From: Solobacterium sp.
GTDB taxonomy: Bacteria; Bacillota_I; Bacilli_A; Erysipelotrichales; Erysipelotrichaceae
Direction: 5' to 3'
Assembly (NCBI GenBank): GCA_024693325.1
Contig: JAILLA010000031.1
Span: 1 to 64,000 of the forward strand
Length of the DNA: 64,000 nt
This document shows, in pieces, positions 20,079-64,000 of this stretch (within the stretch, counting starts at the first letter, position 1; every line of letters starts with the position of its first letter). The translations under genes and the position numbers were made by a program. The notes under the pieces are model-generated. The model had not been told where the DNA came from, searched no databases, and was given only the letters and a program-made list of their open reading frames with translations.

Positions 20079-20618
20079 ATGAGCAGATGGACAAAGAAAC
20101 GGATCGACGAAGCGTTTACCGCACTGGTAACACAGCATGGTTATGAAGACATTACCGTCGCGATGATCATGGAAAAAGCAGATGTCAGTAAAACGACGTT
20201 CTACCGTTATTTCCGGAACAAGGCAGATGTTATGGACTATCACTACCGGAATCTCTATGATGAAGCGTTTGAAAATGAGGACTGCCTTACACTGGAAGAC
20301 CTCTTCACCCTGCTGTTCAGAACGACCCGTGAACATCCTGAAGAACTGGCCATGTTTGATACGATCGGTTATGATTCCTACCGGGAGTTTATCTATAACT
20401 ATACATACCGGAGAGGAAAACAGATCATTGAGACTGCATGGGGCAGACCTTTGACAGAACGTGAGGATTTCAACATTGCGTACTTCTGCGGCGGCGGAGC
20501 CAGGATCCTGGAAGAATGGGCATGCGGCAGATACAGCGGAATGACACCGGAAGAAGCCGGCGCAGCGACAGCAAAGATCATTCACGGAAGATACCAGGTA
20601 CCGATCATCAAGAAATAG
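20079..20618 (+). CDS. TetR/AcrR family regulator
   Basis: ITVAMIMEKADVSKTTFYRYFRNKADVMDYHYRNL. Confidence 0.88.
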   Translation: MSRWTKKRIDEAFTALVTQHGYEDITVAMIMEKADVSKTTFYRYFRNKADVMDYHYRNLYDEAFENEDCLTLEDLFTLLFRTTREHPEELAMFDTIGYDSYREFIYNYTYRRGKQIIETAWGRPLTEREDFNIAYFCGGGARILEEWACGRYSGMTPEEAGAATAKIIHGRYQVPIIKK

Positions 20619-20729: not shown

Positions 20730-21794
20730 ATGAAACAGCTGAAAAACGAATACAGGATCATCATCTGGGGACTCGGAAGTGTCGGCAGAAGTGCCCTGCA
20801 GATCATCAACGCGAAAGAATCACTGAAGCTTGTCGCAGCATATGACATCGACCCGAAAAAGATCGGCAGGGATGCCGGTGAAGTATGCGGCTTCGAACAT
20901 GCAGGCGTTACCGTCACAAATGACCGGGAAGCAGTTCTGAATACAGAAGCAGACATCTGTCTGTATTACGCGGCATCCGTCTGGGATGCAGAAAAACTGC
21001 CTGATCTTGAGACATGCCAGGCCAATGTTGACGACATCAAGGACCTGCTCAGACACGGCAAAAACGTCACGACAACAGTCAATGTATACTTTGCGGAAAA
21101 GAACCAGCCCCGCTATTTCAAGGAGATCGACGAGGCTGCCAGAGATGGCGGCGTCACATTCACACAGCAGGGCATCTTCCCCGGTTTCTTCACACCGTAC
21201 CTGCCCACGATCTTCGGTCTGCTGACCAGAAAGATCAACAAGGTCATCGTGTATGGCGGTCAGGATGACTCCGCAAACACGGCGCCGTGGGTCAATTTTC
21301 TGTGCTATGGAAAGACAGTGGAAGACATTCCGGCAGCTCAGTTCGCGTTTCTGAAGAGCCTCTTCTTCACATATTACGGACCGACTGTGATCGAGATCAC
21401 GGAACGTCTTGGTCTGAAGTATGACGAATACAGATGCGATGTCACACAGATCATGGCAGATAAGGAGATCACGACACCGAATGCCCATATCACACCGGGC
21501 ACGATCGGTACGCATTTCTTTGTCATGGCGACTTATCTGAATGGTGAGGAAGTTGTCGGATTCCATTTCAACCACAAGGGTTCAAATGAGATCCTGGATG
21601 ACTACAAGGTCGACAAGGCGATCGAGATCTTCGGTGAACCTCATGTCAGGGTCGATATTGACGGCATCATCGATCACTTCGATCCGTTCCTGACATCCGC
21701 TGCGCCGAATGTCAACATGATCCCTGCGATCGTTGAGGCGGAACCGGGCTATCATGACGCACTGGATATCCCGCTGATCAGACTTCCGAAATAA
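20730..21794 (+). CDS. NAD(P)-binding dehydrogenase related to dihydrodipicolinate reductase/2,4-diaminopentanoate dehydrogenase
   Basis: IIIWGLGSVGRSALQIINAKESLKLVAAYDIDPKKIGRDAGEVCG; NVTTTVN; GGVTFTQQGIFPGFF. Confidence 0.75.
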   Translation: MKQLKNEYRIIIWGLGSVGRSALQIINAKESLKLVAAYDIDPKKIGRDAGEVCGFEHAGVTVTNDREAVLNTEADICLYYAASVWDAEKLPDLETCQANVDDIKDLLRHGKNVTTTVNVYFAEKNQPRYFKEIDEAARDGGVTFTQQGIFPGFFTPYLPTIFGLLTRKINKVIVYGGQDDSANTAPWVNFLCYGKTVEDIPAAQFAFLKSLFFTYYGPTVIEITERLGLKYDEYRCDVTQIMADKEITTPNAHITPGTIGTHFFVMATYLNGEEVVGFHFNHKGSNEILDDYKVDKAIEIFGEPHVRVDIDGIIDHFDPFLTSAAPNVNMIPAIVEAEPGYHDALDIPLIRLPK

Positions 21795-52338: not shown

Positions 52339-52974
52339 TCATTTCAGATCCTCTGCTGTCGTGATCTTGATGTTGTCATACGTTCCGGCTACAGCCTTGA
52401 CGGGTATGCCGTAACGCTCTGCGAGGGACGCGTCATCCGTCCCGGTGAAGCCTTCCCGGAATGCCTTGTGCATGCAGTCCAGGATCACTTTTGTATGAAA
52501 GACCTGCGGTGTCTGTGCCGCTGCCAATGAAGAACGATCCGGCGTCTCCACGATATATCCGTCCTTCAGCACTTTGATCGTATCCTTGCAGGGAACGCAC
52601 AGGCAGGCTGCCTGTTCCGTTTCCATCGTCTTTTTCAATTCATCCAGTGACTCTTTATGAACATACGGTCTGGCCCCGTCATGGATCATGACGACATCGC
52701 ACAGCACAGCATGCAGACCGTTTGATACGCTTTCCTGTCTGGTGCTTCCGCCCTTTGCCACAACGATCTTGCCGGGCCATCTGGAAGTGATCTCACGCAT
52801 ATAATCCGACGCGTCCGTTACGACAATGATCTGCGCACAGTCTTCATCATTGAGGAATGTTTCCATCGTCATTTCTAGGATCGTTTTTCCGTTGATCCGG
52901 TGATAGACCTTATTATAACCAAGTCCCATTCTTGTGCCGCTGCCTGCCGCAACGATCACTGTACTGTATTTCAT
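52339..52974 (-). CDS. ispD: 2-C-methyl-D-erythritol 4-phosphate cytidylyltransferase
   Basis: MKYSTVIVAAGSGTRMG; VVAKGGSTRQESVSNGL; VMIHDGARPYV; AAAQTPQVFHTKVI; GTDDASLAERYG. Confidence 0.95.
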   Translation of the reverse strand: MKYSTVIVAAGSGTRMGLGYNKVYHRINGKTILEMTMETFLNDEDCAQIIVVTDASDYMREITSRWPGKIVVAKGGSTRQESVSNGLHAVLCDVVMIHDGARPYVHKESLDELKKTMETEQAACLCVPCKDTIKVLKDGYIVETPDRSSLAAAQTPQVFHTKVILDCMHKAFREGFTGTDDASLAERYGIPVKAVAGTYDNIKITTAEDLK

Positions 52975-53033
52975 ACTCAGGTTCCTCCTGCCCCATTTCA
53001 TTTTACCCTGTATGGAAAAATGATTCATCATCT

Positions 53034-53173
53034 TGATACGTGCAAATTCTAATCCGAACAAAATTTAACGGTGTTTAAGGAATATAACACCGGTTATGAC
53101 AATTCTAAACTGAACAAAAGCATCTTACTTGGACGCATACCTGGCGGTTGTTACAATTCTAAACCGAACACAA
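53034..53173 (+). repeat. Putative Tn7-like transposon end with three TnsB-binding-site-like direct repeats
   Basis: GCAAATTCTAATCCGAACAAAA (53042-53063), GACAATTCTAAACTGAACAAAA (53098-53119), TACAATTCTAAACCGAACACAA (53152-53173). The outer repeat is preceded by 8 bp, TGATACGT. Confidence 0.75.
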
Positions 53174-53247
53174 ATTAATAACAGGCATTTAGGAGCAGAT
53201 AAAGACTCTTGCAAACCAACAACTTATACTACCGACTGTTTGAGCCA

Positions 53248-53271
53248 AAAAAACGCCGCATTGGCGTTTTT
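53248..53271 (-). terminator. Intrinsic terminator after tnsC
   Basis: Minus strand AAAAACGCCAATGCGGCGTTTTTTT. Confidence 0.85.
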
Positions 53272-53281
53272 CTAATCTCTG

Positions 53282-54841
53282 TTAAATAATGCATTCTTCA
53301 AGTTTACTGAACAGTTCTTCCGCTGACTCTGAAGATTTTTTCTTCTTATAAGTCTTTTTCTTAGTCACTGCCGCAAATACGTCCAGGAGTACTTTAGACT
53401 GATTCAAATCGCTCAGAGGCAAATCTCCGATTATTTCACCACACGACTTACGAATTTTTTCTTCAGCAATATCAGGCCTGCTCTCTTTAATCTGAGAAAT
53501 GATTTTACAAATGAGTTCTTCTCTTTCGAGTGCATCCTTATCGGATACAATCATCTTTGTAACTTCTTTCTGCTGTTCATCAGAATGAGTGATTCTGCTG
53601 ACCGCTTCTTTGTTATTCAATTTTGTAATTGCTTTGTTAAACTCATTAGCCTTATCTCTCTCAAACATTGCCGCTACTGCCTCTTTTCTCCGCTGAGAGA
53701 AAATTTTCCTTGCTACACGCTTAACGAAACTAGCATCTATTGTTGGTGGCTTATCAAGAGACAGGTACTCCTCATGAAGTCCAATATACAGCCCGGTCAC
53801 CATGTCAGCAACTCCATGTGTACATTCCCATATAGCATTTATAATTGTGTCGTCAAAGATAATACGTTCGTCAAACCACTGGTAATGTGAGATAGTCCTG
53901 AAAAAATAGATATAGAATTCTTTGCTGTAGCAATAATTTGAAGCATCAATGACCTCACCAATGCGCCTTGCTGTTCTGTTGTTGACGAACATACGCTCAT
54001 ATGCGTCTGGGGTACCGATTATACATATGGCGGCTTTCGTGCGATTATTAATTGTAAGAAAAGATTCAAAACTTGATTCGCGATTCGCTGAAAAATTGAG
54101 CAATTGTATTTCATCGATAATAATTGCACCTATCCCAAAACAATTGATCAAATCACATAATGCATCAACTTTGGCGCCAAGAGTACGCTGCTTGTTAATA
54201 TACTCTGAATAAATCTTCTCCAATCCCAAAGCTTTGTCAATCTCCTGTCCAATCTGATGATACAATTCAGAAAGGTTAGAATTGATCATGCAAGTAACAG
54301 CTATATAAACAATTTGCGAAAAAGAACTCACCCCGTCCATGCCGATATGGTGACGAATTACCTGAGGGTATGGCTTTATCATGTTTTTCAGTGCTGATGA
54401 TTTGCCACAACCGGATTCACCAATCAATGCAAAACCCGGAACTGCTGCATCACAGATTTCTCCATATAGTCGTAAGCTCTTTCTTTTGGATGTCACGATT
54501 TTGAAATCACGCGCACGATAACTTGATAACAGAGCCCTGTAAAAGAGATAATCAAGTCGTGTCACGAAAGGCAGAGGTACACGAATCAGTTCCATCTGCT
54601 GCACTAACATCTTTCTTTTTTCACGATTTTCAGTAGTTTCTTTGTTAGTATACAAGGGCAACGCATTTGTATACCTGGTGATCACGTCCTTCTTATCAAA
54701 TGAGATTCTTGGCAATGCTTCGATGCAGGCGTTGCCTTCATCACCAGGTATGATGGCACTGCTGTATTTGGCATCAACAATATTACTGCTCAGTTCTTCC
54801 TGAGTATATGATTCGTTTGTAATAGTATAGTTAAGTTTCAT
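53282..54841 (-). CDS. tnsC: TnsC-like AAA+ transposition regulator
   Basis: Walker A GESGCGKSS, Walker B GAIIIDEIQLL. Start MKLNYTITNESY after GAGGTGAAGAAT; overlaps tnsB. Confidence 0.9.
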   Translation of the reverse strand: MKLNYTITNESYTQEELSSNIVDAKYSSAIIPGDEGNACIEALPRISFDKKDVITRYTNALPLYTNKETTENREKRKMLVQQMELIRVPLPFVTRLDYLFYRALLSSYRARDFKIVTSKRKSLRLYGEICDAAVPGFALIGESGCGKSSALKNMIKPYPQVIRHHIGMDGVSSFSQIVYIAVTCMINSNLSELYHQIGQEIDKALGLEKIYSEYINKQRTLGAKVDALCDLINCFGIGAIIIDEIQLLNFSANRESSFESFLTINNRTKAAICIIGTPDAYERMFVNNRTARRIGEVIDASNYCYSKEFYIYFFRTISHYQWFDERIIFDDTIINAIWECTHGVADMVTGLYIGLHEEYLSLDKPPTIDASFVKRVARKIFSQRRKEAVAAMFERDKANEFNKAITKLNNKEAVSRITHSDEQQKEVTKMIVSDKDALEREELICKIISQIKESRPDIAEEKIRKSCGEIIGDLPLSDLNQSKVLLDVFAAVTKKKTYKKKKSSESAEELFSKLEECII

Positions 54842-56939
54842 ATTCTTCACCTCCCAATTTTTCAAAAATCTTTAATCCATCTTCAAGAACATCGTCAGTG
54901 CTTGTATATGGATCTGTAATCATCGGCTCAGCAGGGTTAGGTTCTTTTACATCAGGAAGAAGCAATACGTTATTTTCAACCGGAACGATAAGCTGTTCCT
55001 GCGCCCTCTTGGATGCTTCCTCTGATCTTGCTTTTCTCATATCTATTTTTGTGTTTTTCTCAACCCTCTGTTTTTCAGCAATACGAATGATCTCGGCGAC
55101 TGCATTTACGGTATTCGACTTGATCAATCCATTAAGCACTTCGGCATCTCTATCAGTTTTCAAGTGTTCCTTGCGGGCTTTTCTGTATTCATCCAGACTG
55201 CCGGATAACCTCTTTTGGTTTGCGCGATTTGTATTCAAGGAGATAGTTTCCAATGTATGATCTCTCATAATAAACACCCTTGTAATGTCTCGCGTATCCA
55301 TTCGTACTTCCACCTTATCCTTCTTATCTTTTGACGAATAAATCATTTCCCTGAACCAGGCAGATTCTGAAAGATAATTCAAGCCTTCGAAGTTTAATCC
55401 TTTACGGGTTAAATTCATTTTCAGCGGTTGTAAAAGTGAATATCTGAAAGCTGTAAGATTTATCTGTTTGGGTAAACCATAATGCCTTACCCCAAAATCC
55501 CAAAGACAGGTACTCGTTGCAATAACACCTTCCTCGTGCATTTTTTTAGTCATCGGATAATTTTTCCAGTACAGAGCATTGTGCATTATTATTGTCCGGA
55601 TGATAATCTCTTCGAATTCGCTCATTGTCAGAATTGCGTCTTCGCTCGGATCATCCTCTTTTCTTCCGGTTATACCACCATGTTTTGTATAGAGGAACTT
55701 AGTCGGTGCTGAGGACGAATGGAAAGTGCCTTCAACTAACCCCTTCAAACTGCCTGTAGCAGGTGGAACCAGCTCATGATTGATCCCCAGTTCGGCGCAT
55801 ATCCTTGCCATTTCCTTAGATAAGTATTCTGCACCATAATCAGTTCTCAATCTGGCCGGCAAATAACCCGAAGGCCAAAGCTCAGGTTTAATGGTGATAC
55901 CATATTTTTTACATAGTGCGACTTTATCGTCAGAAAGACTCAGCAAACAATTCTTAGCTCCGTTTATTCCGTTGTTCACAAAGCCGACGGAATATCCCAT
56001 AATCTTTCTGCTATAAACATCTATCATCAGATACAAAATCGGACGACCGATTTCTATCGACCGATCTTCTTCAGCAACTATCCGCACATCAAATTCCTGC
56101 TCATCCGTTTCGAAAAGATCACCAGGACCATATACTCCGGAAAGATTATCTGAAACGAGGATCCTTTTATTATTTCGAAAATCTCGTTCAGTTGTATTAG
56201 CCTTTATCCTCTCTTCTGAAGTAAGATTTTTTTTCACATAATAATAGAACTGGCGCGCTGATGGTTTTAAAATGTGTACTATTGTACGTCCAGATTCATC
56301 TTTGGATGTTTCCCAGTCATATTGTTTATCATTTTCACTGAAACACCCAATTAAAGTGGCGTCCGGATTACCCTTATACTTCTTGATTGCTTTGTCAAAC
56401 ATCTCCCGATCTTTGTCATCTAAAAGTTTTCCAGCATACACATGATTCTCTGCTGGCCTGCCCGGCTTTTTAGTGTATTCGTATTGAACGTTTTTACTGT
56501 TGCCGAACTGGCGACGGTCATAAAGCATTCTTCCGTCGAGACCAGACTGAAGATATACTCTGAACAACTGCCAGAAAGTCGTTTTACCTATTGAATATTT
56601 TTCACAAACAGATTTAACAAAATCATTAGCTCCTTTTCGATGATATCTTTCTAGCTCATCTCCAAAAAAATTCATCGCATCTTTACAGATCGATATGTTT
56701 CTCATGGTTTTTTCGCTAATCTCATCTTCTATCTGAATGTTCACTTCCTGAAATGGAACGATTTGCCAGCACTGGCTTGCTATGTTTTTTCCAATTTCAT
56801 CCGTGAAAAGCTGCGATACTATGATTTTCGACACATTCATGTCAACCATTGTTACAACGTTATCTTTAATGCAAATGATTCGCCTGACGCCTTCAGGTGA
56901 AATTATCACATCACCGACTCCATATGATACTGTCTGCAT
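54831..56939 (-). CDS. tnsB: TnsB-like DDE transposase
   Basis: DLFETDEQEFDV, LRTDYGAEYLSKEMARICAELGINHELVPPATGSLKGLVEGTFH (DDE residues); Mu/Tn7-type C-terminus. Confidence 0.93.
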   Translation of the reverse strand: MQTVSYGVGDVIISPEGVRRIICIKDNVVTMVDMNVSKIIVSQLFTDEIGKNIASQCWQIVPFQEVNIQIEDEISEKTMRNISICKDAMNFFGDELERYHRKGANDFVKSVCEKYSIGKTTFWQLFRVYLQSGLDGRMLYDRRQFGNSKNVQYEYTKKPGRPAENHVYAGKLLDDKDREMFDKAIKKYKGNPDATLIGCFSENDKQYDWETSKDESGRTIVHILKPSARQFYYYVKKNLTSEERIKANTTERDFRNNKRILVSDNLSGVYGPGDLFETDEQEFDVRIVAEEDRSIEIGRPILYLMIDVYSRKIMGYSVGFVNNGINGAKNCLLSLSDDKVALCKKYGITIKPELWPSGYLPARLRTDYGAEYLSKEMARICAELGINHELVPPATGSLKGLVEGTFHSSSAPTKFLYTKHGGITGRKEDDPSEDAILTMSEFEEIIIRTIIMHNALYWKNYPMTKKMHEEGVIATSTCLWDFGVRHYGLPKQINLTAFRYSLLQPLKMNLTRKGLNFEGLNYLSESAWFREMIYSSKDKKDKVEVRMDTRDITRVFIMRDHTLETISLNTNRANQKRLSGSLDEYRKARKEHLKTDRDAEVLNGLIKSNTVNAVAEIIRIAEKQRVEKNTKIDMRKARSEEASKRAQEQLIVPVENNVLLLPDVKEPNPAEPMITDPYTSTDDVLEDGLKIFEKLGGEEYET

Positions 56940-57616
56940 AAATCCACCTCCCTCTTATATCTGATCGCCAGTTCTCTGAAATCCAGTTCCTCTGACTCAA
57001 GATCCACTTTTATCAACCGTCTGGCAATCAAATGTTTCACATAACTGATGTCATCTAAGGCATTTTCTGGCAGGTTATAAAACGCGGTTACAAGTCGAAT
57101 GTTATGAGCATATGTCCTATTAATGGTTTCACCATTTATGATAAAAAACTTAATATGCTGCCTTTTCCAGTATTCATGCTCGAGACGAAGCTTTTCATAA
57201 AGCCTCTTTGCTCCATCTTCTTTTGGCCCCGGCAGACTCGCTTTAACTGAATATGCCATTAAATCTCCTGAGTTTGTCGTCACAAGAAGATCTGTACTTA
57301 TTGTCACTGGTTTATGTGTTTTAGAATCAAGTGGGTGCTGTATATGCAACTGGTCAGCTAATTCGAGTGTGATATCCAGCTGTAAAGGGACCTGTTCACG
57401 AACATCTATAACGTATGGATTAAAACGGAGTATGTACCACGCAAGATGCTCTGGTTGTGACTCCAAATGCACCTGCCGTCCAGTAATCCAGTCAATCGGT
57501 GTCGCTGTTGTACCCAGGCTTCCAAATTCACCTGTCTGGATCCAAGGCTTATAATTTGCACCTTCTCCAGTGCCTCTCTTTTCGGCATATTTTTTTTCGT
57601 CAGTTTTGTATCGCAT
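56906..57616 (-). CDS. tnsA: TnsA-like endonuclease
   Basis: SQPEHLAWYILRFNPYVIDVREQVPL, ISTDLLVTTNSGDLMAYSVKAS, LRLEHEYWKRQHIKFFIIN (E/D/K catalytic pattern). Confidence 0.93.
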   Translation of the reverse strand: MRYKTDEKKYAEKRGTGEGANYKPWIQTGEFGSLGTTATPIDWITGRQVHLESQPEHLAWYILRFNPYVIDVREQVPLQLDITLELADQLHIQHPLDSKTHKPVTISTDLLVTTNSGDLMAYSVKASLPGPKEDGAKRLYEKLRLEHEYWKRQHIKFFIINGETINRTYAHNIRLVTAFYNLPENALDDISYVKHLIARRLIKVDLESEELDFRELAIRYKREVDLCRQYHMESVM

Positions 57617-59006
57617 AAAAAATCCCCCTTGTACGTAAATGTCCTTTATCTGTTAATACTGTCAGCGCATGTCGAATCTTGTGAATTGGTAACTCACTGA
57701 CATGTAATGTCAGGTCCTGAAGAGTAAACTCATCATCAAAATGTTCAATTATCGTCCTGTACACCGTCCCAACGTAAGTACTGTCGCAAAATGGGCAGCT
57801 ATACTGAGAAAGTGGTGTCATCGTGAATGTGTTTCCACATGCAGTATGCTTCAAAGTCAGAAAATTATGCTTTGGCACCGGATATCTAAGGATTTGGAAT
57901 GGAGGAAGTTTTTTCAAAGAAATTGGCTTCTTCTGCTTATCTTCCAGTTCACATACACAAGGATGTGGTTTCAGTATCCTGCTTGTATTGACGACCGACT
58001 GTCTGCCACATTTTTCGTGTTCGATAACAATTCTTGACGGTGAAAAAGGTTCTCTCGCAAGTCTGTACGACTCACCGCCGGCATTCAGAATCTTCGAAAT
58101 GCGGCTTTCAAAACTGAGTTCAGAGTCACAAGAAGGACAATTTATTCCATGCTGAATTGTTTCTTCATTTGTATAGAATTCACTTCCACATGAGTGCTTT
58201 ACTTTGAAAAGATACCGTGGTCCATCAATCAGTTGATAGTCAGCAGGTAAATTCAGTTTCCACGGATAATGACTGCAGAAGTAGTCATAAGCATCAGCAT
58301 ATGATGAGAACACCAACATCATCGTTTTGAAAACAAGAGGCATGAGCACATTAACGTTTTTCTCCGAAATTTTACCGAAATGCTGCGGTATGAGGTTTTT
58401 GACTGATTCATCTTTAAGCCAATCTAAAATATCATCACGTCCTACTTGCAGCGGACTCTTGTAGTACTGATACACCCACTCAGAGTAGTCAGTACCATTA
58501 ACGACCTCTACGGGAGATCCTGTTGAAAAATCGAACATGTCAATATCTTTTATGTATCCACAACTGATCAACGGCACATGATGCACAGGACAAACATCCA
58601 CCCCTGGAAGATAATGGAACCGGCGTAAGACTTTTGTTTCATCCCAGCAATGAGGACAAACGTTTATTTTTACAGGATAAAGTGATGCTGACTTATCGAA
58701 ATGAATAGGATAATCTGTCACCTCAGCAGTATACGCAGCTATCTCATGTGACTTTAAAAATGGGTACTGGTAAGGAAAAAGGGTCAAACTTTTAGTAAAC
58801 TCAGAGATGTCATTTTCTATCAGCAAAGTTAATGCTGAATGATACATATTCATATCAAGTGCATTAGGTTGGGCGGATAATGAACTCTTTGTTATTGCGG
58901 TATTATAAAAATCTGACAAATTGTTAAAGCCGTTAGCATATGCCAATCTCAAATAATATGAAATTGCCAATTCATCTTTTTCTGCTTTTATTTGTGTCGG
59001 CAACAT
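57600..59006 (-). CDS. TniQ/TnsD-like target-selection protein
   Basis: N-terminal TniQ domain with CPHCWDETKVLRRFHYLPGVDVCPVHHVPLISCG zinc finger plus further CxxC pairs and a C-terminal winged-helix-like region. Start MLPTQIKAEKDELAISYYLRLAYANGF after GAGAAAGGAGATCCCT. Confidence 0.92.
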   Translation of the reverse strand: MLPTQIKAEKDELAISYYLRLAYANGFNNLSDFYNTAITKSSLSAQPNALDMNMYHSALTLLIENDISEFTKSLTLFPYQYPFLKSHEIAAYTAEVTDYPIHFDKSASLYPVKINVCPHCWDETKVLRRFHYLPGVDVCPVHHVPLISCGYIKDIDMFDFSTGSPVEVVNGTDYSEWVYQYYKSPLQVGRDDILDWLKDESVKNLIPQHFGKISEKNVNVLMPLVFKTMMLVFSSYADAYDYFCSHYPWKLNLPADYQLIDGPRYLFKVKHSCGSEFYTNEETIQHGINCPSCDSELSFESRISKILNAGGESYRLAREPFSPSRIVIEHEKCGRQSVVNTSRILKPHPCVCELEDKQKKPISLKKLPPFQILRYPVPKHNFLTLKHTACGNTFTMTPLSQYSCPFCDSTYVGTVYRTIIEHFDDEFTLQDLTLHVSELPIHKIRHALTVLTDKGHLRTRGIFYAIQN

Positions 59007-59083
59007 AGGGATCTCCTTTCTCTTATGAGGGGATTTCCCTGCAACAAACAAAGAGCGCTCTGCACAGGAAAATCCCGTGACAT
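58988..59083 (-). CDS. Putative 31-aa leader ORF overlapping the tniQ start
   Basis: AAAGGAG-6 nt-ATG; MSRDFPVQSALCLLQGNPLIRERRSLCCRHK*; runs 19 nt into tniQ in another frame. Confidence 0.35.
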   Translation of the reverse strand: MSRDFPVQSALCLLQGNPLIRERRSLCCRHK

Positions 59084-59093
59084 AGAGCGCTCC
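59030..59093 (-). promoter_or_regulatory. Interlocking inverted repeats in the tniQ leader (possible attenuator/alternative structure)
   Basis: Pair 1: AGAGCGCTCT (59052-59061) with AGAGCGCTC (59084-59092). Pair 2: GGGATTTCCCTG (59030-59041) with CAGGAAAATCCC (59065-59076), one mismatch. The pairs cross. Confidence 0.55.
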
Positions 59094-59292
59094 TTTTTTT
59101 GCATTACGAGCCAAATTAAGCTCCGCCCCCGGTATCACTCCCCAACACCTGCTCTTCACATAGCCGAAGGATCATTGTTAGCCGAGTAGCTTCTGTCTAT
59201 ATTATTATATCACACTTCCGAATCATCAGTTTGAACTATTTCCAAGCATGAATTATATGAATGCACAAATATATTTGCTTGCAATAGCAATT

Positions 59293-59712
59293 TCATTTTG
59301 CAGGGCTCTGTTTTGCATATCTTTCGTATAACTGAATAGATTTGTTGATCAGCTGTATCACTTCATCTTTATTCCATTCGAAATTCACTGGTAAATCTCC
59401 CCGTTTCTGCAAATCCAATTTTTTATCGTAGCAATAAAAATCCAAAAAATCATTTATATGTTCTGCTATTTCTTCAATACTGGTGTAATCCGATGTAAAA
59501 TTCCCAAATGTTTCTAAACCGCTTGGACGGCGTACATTTAGACACGTCATTACCCGATAATGATTATTATCTTCAATCTCTATTATCTTTACAGCCACAA
59601 TTTTTTTAATGTTTAAGGTTATTAATAATTTTGAATCTTGTTCAACAATTTTGCTATGTGGGAACCATTGTAAATAACGTTGTTTCTGTTCATCTGCAGT
59701 CATAAGGTACAC
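59293..59712 (-). CDS. Hypothetical protein, AT-rich
   Basis: 139-aa ORF with a plausible start near an RBS (GGAGGAGTGTACC); no recognised domain. Confidence 0.55.
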   Translation of the reverse strand: MYLMTADEQKQRYLQWFPHSKIVEQDSKLLITLNIKKIVAVKIIEIEDNNHYRVMTCLNVRRPSGLETFGNFTSDYTSIEEIAEHINDFLDFYCYDKKLDLQKRGDLPVNFEWNKDEVIQLINKSIQLYERYAKQSPAK

Positions 59713-59900
59713 TCCTCCCCCAGGTGTAACAAATGAATCTTGGTACCGCCACTACAATAACACTAACGATACAGAAAAATGAATATCTGTTTAAATATTT
59801 CTCGATATTAGTCATCTATATCAAGCTGACATTGTATTATTATATTTATTGCTATCCAGATAAGTTTCAAATTACAATAATAATGTGTTTAGGATGAACA

Positions 59901-60518
59901 ATGAAAAAAAAGATTAATGTAATATTGTCAGTTTTTATGGTTTTATGCTTATTTACAGTCAGTTGTAATTCTTCATGTAGAAAGCAGATAGAGACATATG
60001 ATGATTTAAGGCCCTCAATGAAGATGTTTTCAGACATCAGTAACTGTTATGAGGCGAGTAGTGATCATTTTTGTGTAAAAATAACTGGTATTCAGAAATC
60101 AGAAGATGATTTCTCTTATCAGTATTCTTATGCATTAGCCATTGCTTGTACGAAAGACGAACCAATGAGAATCCGAAATATTGAATTCTATAATGATCAA
60201 TTGCTTGATCAAAAGCTAGTTGGTTTTTCACTTCCACAAAAGTTTCAAATATTGGACTATTTCGAGAACACCAATTTTACGGATAAGTATTCTTTTGAAG
60301 CATTCCAGTGGATTATTAAAAAAAGCATTTCCAAAGACACCTTAAAACATATTGATTACAGTGAAGAAGAACTAGACAACAGCATGAAGAAAATAAACAT
60401 AAAGTTTGTGTTCAATATGCAAGAGGAGTTGATAGAAATATCCTGTGATCAGTTACTGCCATTTGAGATTCCATTTTTCAGAGGAGACTATATGTTTGGG
60501 GTTTTAAGTGATTTCTGA
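59901..60518 (+). CDS. Hypothetical lipoprotein
   Basis: Signal peptide and lipobox: MKKKINVILSVFMVLCLFTVSCNSSC. Confidence 0.7.
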   Translation: MKKKINVILSVFMVLCLFTVSCNSSCRKQIETYDDLRPSMKMFSDISNCYEASSDHFCVKITGIQKSEDDFSYQYSYALAIACTKDEPMRIRNIEFYNDQLLDQKLVGFSLPQKFQILDYFENTNFTDKYSFEAFQWIIKKSISKDTLKHIDYSEEELDNSMKKINIKFVFNMQEELIEISCDQLLPFEIPFFRGDYMFGVLSDF

Positions 60519-60545
60519 ATCATGAAAAAAGAAAGGTAGGATAGT

Positions 60546-60950
60546 ATGAAGATTTCAGAATTACTGTTTTCAAGGCTTTTCATGATTCTGTTTACCTACT
60601 GTGCATGGTTTCTGGGACTCAGTCCTCAGTTATCACAAACAAACAGAATCCTGTGCTTTCTGATCACGGTCATCTGGATGATATATATTCTCCTTTATGC
60701 TTACCGGAGAAACAGTCTTTTTGTAAAAATCTACGGCTGGGCATTTCTGTTTATGGCTGTTCTGGTTCTTGGCACAAAGCTGTTTCATTTGCCGTATGAT
60801 CTGACGATCCTTGCGGTGTTTCTGTATCCTCCTTTCGGCGGATTACCACTGCAGAATCGTCCGGTACTGCTGGTTTCATTGATCTCGGTCTACTGGATAA
60901 TCGTGCTTGGAATATGTTACCGTGACAGACTGTCACACCTGAAACGTTAA
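60546..60950 (+). CDS. Hypothetical membrane protein
   Basis: 134-aa multi-TM ORF with RBS GAAAGGTAGGATAGT. Confidence 0.65.
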   Translation: MKISELLFSRLFMILFTYCAWFLGLSPQLSQTNRILCFLITVIWMIYILLYAYRRNSLFVKIYGWAFLFMAVLVLGTKLFHLPYDLTILAVFLYPPFGGLPLQNRPVLLVSLISVYWIIVLGICYRDRLSHLKR

Positions 60951-60975
60951 AATACGGATTTGAGGAATTGTACGT

Positions 60976-61305
60976 ATGAAAAAGAGAAGCATTTACTCCC
61001 TGATCTGTGCCGCAGTCATTGCGGCAGGATGCGCATTGATAACAGCACTGAAAGGCTGGGGTCTTTCCGAATTCTGCTACTGCATGATCGCGGCAGGACT
61101 TATAGCATGCGTGGCCGGTGTTGGATTTACACCATCAAATCGCAGCGGGATTGGCAGAGGACAGTTTGGTACAGGCATGGAAAAACTTGTCCTGGATTCA
61201 TGGCAGATGGAAGGAAAAAAGAGACAGAACAGTACGATCGATTTCCTGTATATCGGCGGTGCACTCTGTGCAGCCCTGGGATTCCTGATCATGGCTGTGT
61301 TCTGA
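60976..61305 (+). CDS. Hypothetical membrane protein
   Basis: 109-aa ORF with three TM-like segments (SLICAAVIAAGCALI; YCMIAAGLIACVAGVGF; FLYIGGALCAALGFLIMAVF). Confidence 0.65.
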   Translation: MKKRSIYSLICAAVIAAGCALITALKGWGLSEFCYCMIAAGLIACVAGVGFTPSNRSGIGRGQFGTGMEKLVLDSWQMEGKKRQNSTIDFLYIGGALCAALGFLIMAVF

Positions 61306-61435
61306 TCATCCGTCTTCACACTGCTCCGGCAGTATTGAAAGAAAACAGATCAGGACGCAGTGTTTGTCAGAACGAAACAGTACCCGATTTATCAGATGAA
61401 TACGAAAACACTCAAATATTTTGGAGGCAATCAAG

Positions 61436-62047
61436 ATGGCAAGAATATGTTCAGTATGCGGCAAAAAAGCAGATACTATGCTTCAGAGCGGAAACGTTGT
61501 CGGATCTGCTGTGATCTGCTGGGACTGTTATCTCAAGATCAAACACTTTTCCAAACAGAAGGTTTTTGAAACACCTGAAGCACTCGAAGAGAATGAAGCA
61601 ATCGTCATGCAGGAGCTGCAAGACAATCAGTTCCCGGAAAGTGTTATTGAAGAATACAGAAAATACTATGCAATGAAAAAGAATCCGGTTCTTGCTTCAG
61701 GAGAAGATCCTGTAATGATTACCACGACACCTGAATTCAGTGGATATCAGATCCGTGAATATAAAGGCCTTGTATCCGGAGAAGTTGTGATCGGTACTGG
61801 CATATTATCCGGCATGGAAGCAGGTGTAGCGGATATGTTCGGCTCCGAAGCATCGGCTTATGGAGAAAAAATCGATGCGGCAGAGTCTGTTGCTGCCAGA
61901 AGGGCATACCGTGAAGCCTGCAGAAAAGGCGGCAATGCGATTGTCGGTGCAAAACTGGATCTGGAACTGTTCGCAAGAGATCTGATCTGTGTCATGGTCA
62001 GCGGTACTGCAGTATTGATCGAAAAGGAGAATGAAGAACAGAAATGA
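61436..62047 (+). CDS. YbjQ family protein with N-terminal zinc-ribbon-like domain
   Basis: MARICSVCGKKADTML...ICWDCYLKI (CxxC...CxxC) plus YQIREYKGLVSGEVVIGTGILSGMEAGVADMFGSEASAYGEKI...GGNAIVGAKLDLE. Confidence 0.88.
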   Translation: MARICSVCGKKADTMLQSGNVVGSAVICWDCYLKIKHFSKQKVFETPEALEENEAIVMQELQDNQFPESVIEEYRKYYAMKKNPVLASGEDPVMITTTPEFSGYQIREYKGLVSGEVVIGTGILSGMEAGVADMFGSEASAYGEKIDAAESVAARRAYREACRKGGNAIVGAKLDLELFARDLICVMVSGTAVLIEKENEEQK

Positions 62048-62561
62048 GATCCGGCTGTACAATGTGATTTTTCCAATATATTTCATTCTGTATTTTCCGA
62101 ACCCGTTCTGGGTGATTGCAATTCCATTGAATTATGTCATTGACAGCCTTGTGCTTCGCCTGGGACTGAAGCTGTGCCGGATCTATGAGAACAAAGAGGA
62201 ACGCAGGCATTTTATAAACAGAACAGCATGGAAGCTGTGCATTGCCGGATTTACTGCGGATTATCTTGGTGTCCTGTTTCTGATGTATTTTCCGCAGTTG
62301 TTTCTGTCGGAGCAGCTTGCAAGGGAAATTGCCACAGCACAATATACCAGCCCGTTTGTCTCATCGGATGTACTTGCAGTATTTCTGGCTACTGTAGTAT
62401 TCTCCGGCATATGCATCTGTATAATTGACCGGTGGATTCTGAAGAAACAGGGACTTGATGCAAAAACAGCCGGGAAGATTGCATTATTGCTGGCAGTGCT
62501 TACAGCACCGTATCTGACGCTGTATCCTACAGGAATGATCATGAATTATGAAACATTCTGA
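62031..62561 (+). CDS. Hypothetical membrane protein
   Basis: 176-aa multi-TM ORF overlapping the ybjQ-like gene. Confidence 0.6.
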   Translation: MKNRNEIRLYNVIFPIYFILYFPNPFWVIAIPLNYVIDSLVLRLGLKLCRIYENKEERRHFINRTAWKLCIAGFTADYLGVLFLMYFPQLFLSEQLAREIATAQYTSPFVSSDVLAVFLATVVFSGICICIIDRWILKKQGLDAKTAGKIALLLAVLTAPYLTLYPTGMIMNYETF

Positions 62562-62591
62562 CATATAAGAAAGAGAGGGTTATATGCATTC

Positions 62592-62747
62592 ATGAAAGAC
62601 CTTAATTATCTGGTGTTTCTTGTCGGACTGTTTATCAGTTTTATGACCGGCATTATTACACTGCTGATATTCCATGATTTATCTTTTTCCGGAATGTGCA
62701 TCATTGCTTCCGCAATTCTGTATTCCCATTCACTGGAACAGAAATAA
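62592..62747 (+). CDS. 51-aa membrane protein (below the ORF-track cutoff)
   Basis: MKDLNYLVFLVGLFISFMTGIITLLIFHDLSFSGMCIIASAILYSHSLEQK* in a collinear cluster. Confidence 0.5.
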   Translation: MKDLNYLVFLVGLFISFMTGIITLLIFHDLSFSGMCIIASAILYSHSLEQK

Positions 62748-62753
62748 TGCTTT

Positions 62754-63206
62754 ATGAAAACTATGGAAAAAATGCTCCATGATGAATACCTGGCGCTTGC
62801 ATGGATCGCAGTAACGGTAGTGCTTGATGTAATCTGCATATTTGCGCCTTTTGTATCCTCTGCATTGTGGTTTAAGTTCATATGCTCGATTATGTATTCA
62901 GCCTTTATGGTTTATTACGCGTGTTCAGCTACCAATCGTACATACTATTTCCATGTGATCGTTGTTATATGTTTACTGCTGACGGCAGTATATCTTGCTG
63001 ATTTAAATCATCCAGCCATTATCCCGGAAAATCTGCTGATCCCGGCAACCGCAATTTTTCTGTTTCCATATAACGGGGCGATGGAGGTGTTTGGTGCATT
63101 TATGAATCCGTATCTGATGGTATTGCTGTTTCAATTGTTATTGCTTGCAGTACATTGCTTATTCCGCAAACATAGTACGGAGAGAAATGAGGATTATATC
63201 GGGTAG
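62754..63206 (+). CDS. Hypothetical membrane protein
   Basis: 150-aa multi-TM ORF. Confidence 0.6.
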   Translation: MKTMEKMLHDEYLALAWIAVTVVLDVICIFAPFVSSALWFKFICSIMYSAFMVYYACSATNRTYYFHVIVVICLLLTAVYLADLNHPAIIPENLLIPATAIFLFPYNGAMEVFGAFMNPYLMVLLFQLLLLAVHCLFRKHSTERNEDYIG

Positions 63207-63254
63207 AAGGATAGGTATTTTTGTAACAGACATGACTGAGAGGCAGGACAGCTT

Positions 63255-63917
63255 ATGAAAAAATGGATTGCGGGAGCTTTGCTGTTTGTACTTTTTATCG
63301 CAGCTTTCATAAATAACGAAGGGAAAAGATACAACGGATATGATCCGGACAGTCCCTATATCGGCTATTCCGGGCCAATGTATTCTGTTGTATCACTTCG
63401 GGATGATGATCTTATGACAGTACAGGAACGGAACGTGTCATTTGATTTTTCTACATATCAGGATGACTGGTTTGATACCGGGTATATTGATTTTCTGAGA
63501 CAGCAGGAATGGTACGATGCAACTATGGAAAAGCAGCTGAAAGAACTGCGTCAGTTCAAGGGTGTTTACAGTGACGATGTCCTGCTGAAAGACACCTATA
63601 CCATTCAGAATCATTCTTCCGCAGAAGAGACAGCTGTCCTCGTATATCCTTTTGTATCAAATATCTCGGAAATATCGGAGAGACGGCCGGAGCTGTTCCT
63701 GAATGGACAACAGATCCATACTGATATTCGTTATGGTGATGTCTGGGATGGTGCACGGAGAGTGTGTGACAATTCCAACCAGGAATACCGTGAGCTGCTG
63801 AAAGACAATGCATATCTGGATCATGCGCTGAGCGAAGAAAGATATAATCTTCCCGATCTTCCATTCCATTTATATAAAATGGACAATATTTTGCTAATCA
63901 CAGTCCATCTTTTATAA
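63255..63917 (+). CDS. Hypothetical secreted/membrane-anchored protein
   Basis: N-terminal signal anchor MKKWIAGALLFVLFIAAFINN; RBS-like AGGCAGGACAGC. Confidence 0.6.
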   Translation: MKKWIAGALLFVLFIAAFINNEGKRYNGYDPDSPYIGYSGPMYSVVSLRDDDLMTVQERNVSFDFSTYQDDWFDTGYIDFLRQQEWYDATMEKQLKELRQFKGVYSDDVLLKDTYTIQNHSSAEETAVLVYPFVSNISEISERRPELFLNGQQIHTDIRYGDVWDGARRVCDNSNQEYRELLKDNAYLDHALSEERYNLPDLPFHLYKMDNILLITVHLL

Positions 63918-64000
63918 AGAAAGCAAAAACAATGATTTATAATGAACACGAAAGCATATGGACAGAAAAATATTGCGAAATTACATATATAACATTCTGT

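Follow-up and report, generated by a model that had tools for sequence, protein, structure and literature searches.

The attachment sites of Tn7-like transposons are usually the 3' ends of genes or tRNA genes. Tn7 proper, which targets the 3' end of glmS, carries TnsE besides TnsA, TnsB, TnsC and its TniQ/TnsD protein, and its TnsB-binding sites are spaced in the left end and packed in the right. Every relative of Tn7 duplicates 5 bp of its target, and the att site that TniQ recognises tends to lie next to the end whose sites overlap (PMC11406308). Tn5469 and Tn5053 have a single TniQ and no second targeting protein, Tn5053 being devoid of TnsA and reliant on resolvase sites, and Tn5469 devoid of cargo (PMC11406308).

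Here we analyze a stretch of 64,000 nucleotides (the window) of an Erysipelotrichaceae genome in which a first-pass annotation had proposed that three repeats next to ispD mark the end of a Tn7-like transposon. Our results support the assignment of these repeats as a putative TnsB-binding array, and very probably they form the left end of a Tn7-like transposon of ~13.7 kb that is present in one copy and appears to be intact. The family is known, and the ispD element constitutes a newly documented member of it that possibly uses a new attachment site. The literature searched includes no papers on Tn7-like elements of the Erysipelotrichaceae and no report of an ispD-gntR attachment site, although its absence there is no proof of novelty.

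The ispD element (Table 1) has in common with Tn7 the separate TnsA, TnsB and TnsC proteins together with a TniQ/TnsD protein, the TG...CA termini with an 8-bp end and a first site at position 9, the combination of spaced left and packed right sites, and the 5-bp duplication. It departs from Tn7 in its operon order tniQ-tnsA-tnsB-tnsC and in the placement of this operon at the left end, where it is read outward and the cargo fills the space from tniQ to the right end, in having three right-end sites instead of four, and in a target that separates two divergent genes, ispD and gntR, instead of the 3' end of glmS. Identity with Tn7 proper was rejected in view of this insertion point and of the lack of a TnsE match, the four-gene tns operon having no fifth gene that matches TnsE. 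With Tn5469 and Tn5053 the element shares the single TniQ unaccompanied by a second targeting protein, whereas its TnsA sets it apart from Tn5053 and its cargo from Tn5469.

Table 1. Features of the ispD element and its left flank (window positions unless a contig is given).
Feature	Position	Strand	Basis or remark
ispD (host gene)	52339..52974	-	NCBIfam ispD TIGR00453, E 7.8e-67
Target duplication CATCT	53029..53033	+	Single CATCT in G031, both flanks collinear
Window portion of transposon	53034..64000		Runs on along contig C98 to 65612
Left terminus of transposon, 8 bp, TGATACGT	53034..53041	+	Breakpoint from empty-site alignment
Putative TnsB site L1, GCAAATTCTAATCCGAACAAAA	53042..53063	+	Core pattern search
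Putative TnsB site L2, GACAATTCTAAACTGAACAAAA	53098..53119	+	Copy closest to the Tn7R site
Putative TnsB site L3, TACAATTCTAAACCGAACACAA	53152..53173	+	Core pattern search
tnsC, AAA+ ATPase, 527 aa	53282..54865	-	Pfam AAA_22 4.4e-13, TniB 1e-5
tnsB, DDE transposase, 702 aa	54831..56939	-	rve and Mu-transpos_C domains
tnsA, endonuclease, 236 aa	56906..57616	-	Tn7_TnsA-like_N 3.6e-11
tniQ/tnsD-type target selector, ~468 aa	57600..59006	-	Pfam TniQ 2.8e-16
Strong hairpin and U-rich tail, tniQ leader	59053..59093	-	Fold z-score -3.6
139-aa ORF next to tniQ	59293..59712	-	In region 96% identical to L110
Cargo: small exported/membrane proteins, YbjQ-domain protein, flippase-like protein	59901..64000	+	
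YbjQ-domain protein (cargo)	61436-62047	+	
Polysaccharide flippase-like protein (cargo)	~63959 to C98:65406	+	Polysacc_synt

Terminal repeats at the left end

The annotation had described three direct 22-mers 56 and 54 bp apart, and both positions and spacing are borne out to the base: the 16-mer core AATTCTAAWCYGAACA begins at 53045, 53101 and 53155. When up to three mismatches are allowed, the core occurs four times in the window against 2.4 expected, which is noise. At zero or one mismatch, six copies are found in the 3,613,009-bp genome, three at the left end and three on another contig (C30:20130-20200), and the exact core would be expected about 0.007 times per genome under a uniform model. 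Near-perfect matches are thus confined to the two ends of the element, and the genome-wide occurrence that had been named as a possible objection is not seen. Likewise, among the 273 genomes of the family, the terminus pattern TGNNNNNNGCAAATTCTAANNNGAACA occurs with zero mismatches only at the two ends of the ispD element.

The outermost site is directly preceded by TGATACGTGCA, from 53034, and the proposed Tn7 layout of 8 bp starting with TG and followed by a TnsB site is indeed present, with the first site at position 9. From that point the 22-mers start at 9, 65 and 119, as compared with 9, 73 and 129 in Tn7L. The annotation had further likened the middle copy to a TnsB site of Tn7; the likeness is real, but a check in an E. 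coli genome places the sequence it quoted in the right end of Tn7, between glmS and tnsA, whereas the spacing resembles that of Tn7L. In particular, L2 and Tn7R have TAAACTGAACAAAA and GACAAT in common, the middle part being shorter in L2. This resemblance of the sites to Tn7R and of their layout to Tn7L supports a Tn7-like reading of the locus.

Right end, empty site and insertion point

The inverted other end that the annotation anticipated was found together with the duplication, although on a separate contig and not simply downstream of position 64000. It lies on C30, with its terminus at 20119 (TGTATTGC), and bears three sites inverted relative to those of the left end; TGTATTGCGCA precedes these sites and AGATG, the complement of CATCT, lies just outside. 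Counted inward, the site cores are located at 12, 68 and 122 in the left end and at 12, 33 and 67 in the right end, making up two asymmetric and mutually inverted arrays, spaced on the left and closely packed on the right.

The uninterrupted site is available in a sister species (genome G031; ispD 97% and gntR-type protein 100% identical), in which ispD and the gntR-type gene are divergent neighbors separated by a spacer with one CATCT. The corresponding G031 contig runs collinear with the left flank (95.7%) as far as 53033 exactly, and with the right flank (92.7%) from exactly CATCT on C30; the alignments have 5 bp in common, which correspond to the single CATCT. Collinearity of both flanks to the breakpoint and their overlap at that one CATCT establish that DNA was inserted here, where it starts and stops, and which 5 bp were duplicated. 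The terminus therefore falls at 53034, as the annotation had it, and not at the alternative breakpoint at 53009, and its candidate 5-bp target duplication, CATCT at 53029-53033, is confirmed by the empty site and by the AGATG flank on C30. Since the sister species lacks the element, its arrival is a recent event on the scale of these two species. It lies 59 bp from the start codon of ispD and about 79 bp from that of gntR, and the reading frames of both genes are intact beside it.

The location of the repeats just upstream of a host gene might suggest that they are operators of ispD and that there is no transposon. This interpretation is ruled out by the G031 empty site, whose spacer is collinear except that the repeats are missing from it; they are part of the inserted DNA and recur in inverted orientation at the other end, and we assign the operator reading a negligible probability.

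Extent of the element and cargo

Beyond the window and the end of C98, the element continues on C30, which it enters at 21361 and follows to 20119, the join being inferred from a 124-bp end that the two contigs share. If the join is direct, which is likely, the total length of the transposon is 13,698 bp. The same 124-bp end also begins a third contig, C17, which was considered as part of the element and discarded, since the same locus is found in the element-free G031, whose contig starts there too. The ends of C98 and C30, the start of C17 and, in part, G031:C15:35143 thus carry a repeat that is at least 124 bp long and breaks the assemblies; Rfam returned no match on the window or its flanking contigs, this repeat included.

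Among the cargo genes tested there are no recognised defence genes, and the 139-aa ORF next to tniQ has no Pfam or PADLOC match. A segment of the cargo (62772-63877) is 94% identical to positions 1422-2523 of a contig from a different species (G020:C85, L101). No TnsB was found in that species, and the cargo genes therefore occur also without the transposon.

The tns operon

The Tn7-like genes that were expected near the repeats lie directly inside the left end, as four long open frames on the minus strand (53282-59159) in the order tniQ-tnsA-tnsB-tnsC. They encode a TniQ/TnsD selector, TnsA, a TnsB-family DDE transposase and a TnsC AAA+ regulator, and the best solved-structure matches of the latter three are all Tn7 proteins: TnsA (1f1z, E 2e-18), TnsB (7pik, E 1e-39) and TnsC (8glu, E 3e-16). 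Residues D279, D367 and E403 of TnsB align with acidic residues of Tn7 TnsB and presumably constitute its catalytic triad. The start of tniQ is probably the ATG at 59006, behind AGGAGA, in a mechanical open reading frame that extends to 59159. An AlphaFold model of TniQ built on eight sequences (mean pLDDT 47.8) was too poor for a fold search.

The combination of one TniQ, the only one in the genome, with a Tn7-like core is also what a CRISPR-associated transposon (CAST) with guide-directed insertion would present. However, no Cas or PADLOC match was obtained among the element genes tested, and TniQ exceeds in length the small form that is typical of CASTs, so that an assignment to this group is very improbable.

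By homology, TnsB would bind the six end sites and join the 3' ends, TnsA would cut the 5' ends, resulting in cut-and-paste movement, and TnsC would bridge the transposase and target-bound TniQ. With less certainty, and on the grounds of comparison with a related element, the C-terminal region of TniQ would read the gntR promoter side and direct the element into the spacer, with neither gene being broken.

Related elements and distribution

A search with TnsB identified a metagenomic contig (L110, CACXBN010000382.1) from a bin labelled Ruminococcus RUG11111. On L110, a right end with the 12/33/67 layout is followed by TCATCTTAAAGATTT, after which a second, equally oriented element begins with its left terminus. 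The right flank of the ispD element is CATCTTAAAGATTTTTG, and the L110 right end lies one base away on the same 15 bp. Besides this layout and flank, the L110 sequences share with the ispD element a 60% identical TniQ, a 92% identical TnsB fragment and a 96% identical region upstream of tniQ, but they differ from it in comprising two tandem, apparently rearranged and mosaic elements, in which tnsA is joined to tnsC and tnsB is missing. At L110 2375-4432, one open reading frame fuses TnsC to the first 181 residues of TnsA, as a result of either a natural deletion or a misassembly, and the TnsB fragment lies after the right end of the second element, running into a resolvase fragment. The bin that holds L110 contains no ortholog of the gntR gene and L110 offers no further flank, so the contig may be mis-binned or inserted at another locus.

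L110 matches the 153 nt that precede the tniQ ATG without any difference, whereas the first 360 codons of the gene have diverged to 55% DNA identity; this identical leader next to a diverged gene is possibly a module boundary, and the hairpin that it contains a possible attenuator.

Relatives of TniQ are essentially absent from 395 genomes of the class and, L110 itself excepted, from 395 genomes of the family to which the L110 bin belongs, while any TnsB match is seen in 8 of the 273 genomes of the family, including that of the ispD element. Plasmids yielded only TnsB relatives below 60% identity (23-26% for the best among the matches listed), and viral contigs no relatives of TniQ or TnsB; eight exact matches to the target sequence in viral contigs are read as chance. 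This rarity, the essentially unmatched TniQ in the class and the lack of a second copy in the genome might be taken as signs of a decayed, immobile relic. However, the four frames are long and open, the catalytic residues align, the duplication is perfect, the sites at both ends are near-identical and the sister species lacks the element, all of which makes decay improbable.

Target choice

The packed-site end of the ispD element faces the gntR side and, since the end with such sites tends to face att (PMC11406308), this orientation points to targeting from that side. In addition, TniQ and its L110 counterpart share 83% identity in the stretch 411-519 as opposed to 48% in the stretch 52-410, a pattern in keeping with a C-terminal part that reads a common target, and the position of the L110 right end, one base off beside the identical 15 bp and with another element opposite, would result if elements stacked at a single attachment site on the gntR side. 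The two cases behind this reading, the one mapped insertion and the metagenomic L110 junction, have the same orientation. On these grounds we consider it probable that the C-terminal region of TniQ recognizes DNA on the gntR side and sets a fixed insertion point between ispD and gntR.

It is also conceivable that the transposon is Tn7-like but not site-directed: its TniQ might be relaxed in specificity, a property suggested for Tn5469, and the insertion might have survived because it landed in a spacer. Only one insertion has known flanks, its target is intergenic as opposed to the conserved-gene 3' end that is the commoner Tn7 strategy, and several relatives with known flanks sit elsewhere, at nrdD. 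Nevertheless, the near-coincident L110 junction beside the identical 15 bp and the second element, the conservation of the TniQ C-terminus between the two elements and a TniQ length sufficient for a DNA-binding C-terminal part all weigh against it, and we deem relaxed specificity unlikely.

A more specific version of gntR-side targeting, in which this TniQ lineage would read the promoter region, home between the divergent ispD and gntR promoters and be able to stack in tandem, is put forward tentatively, as a proposal somewhat more doubtful than not; such an attachment site would be of another kind than the gene 3' ends and tRNA genes in common use. The insertion is placed between promoters on account of the divergent orientation of ispD and gntR, and a simple scan of both strands of the empty site returned no match to sigma-70 promoters.

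The locus offers a Tn7-like element that is present in one copy and delimited to the base, together with its two ends, the corresponding empty site and a compact transposition module of four genes. If targeting by TniQ holds true, the ispD-gntR spacer would also become a new address for safe insertion in the Erysipelotrichaceae, and the 109-residue C-terminus, 83% conserved against 48% for the remainder, would mark the target-reading part of the protein.

Divergent relatives at other targets

Operons that begin with tniQ are also found in Holdemanella, Absicoccus, the uncultured Erysipelotrichaceae hRUG900 and some spirochaete bins, with TnsB proteins ~26-37% identical to that of the ispD element. 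The elements of Holdemanella biformis, Absicoccus porci and hRUG900 differ from it in their TnsB (~30% over its length) and flanking genes, and the first two also in a short TniQ (305 and 288 aa, respectively). The Holdemanella (L103/L112) and Absicoccus (L104/L114) elements have one common neighborhood of purB-, murT- and gatD-like genes, named by eye, which suggests a common target and perhaps a separate targeting partner.

In Fusibacillus kribbianus and two Erysipelotrichaceae, divergent Tn7-like elements have their tns genes after the 3' end of nrdD, identified by eye from its protein sequence (L111 6781-9300, L105 7371-9850 and L102 10131-11596). Repeats resembling TnsB sites begin just past the nrdD stop codon, with spacings of 21 and 45 bp in L111, and nrdD thus looks like a recurrent attachment site of divergent Tn7-like elements.
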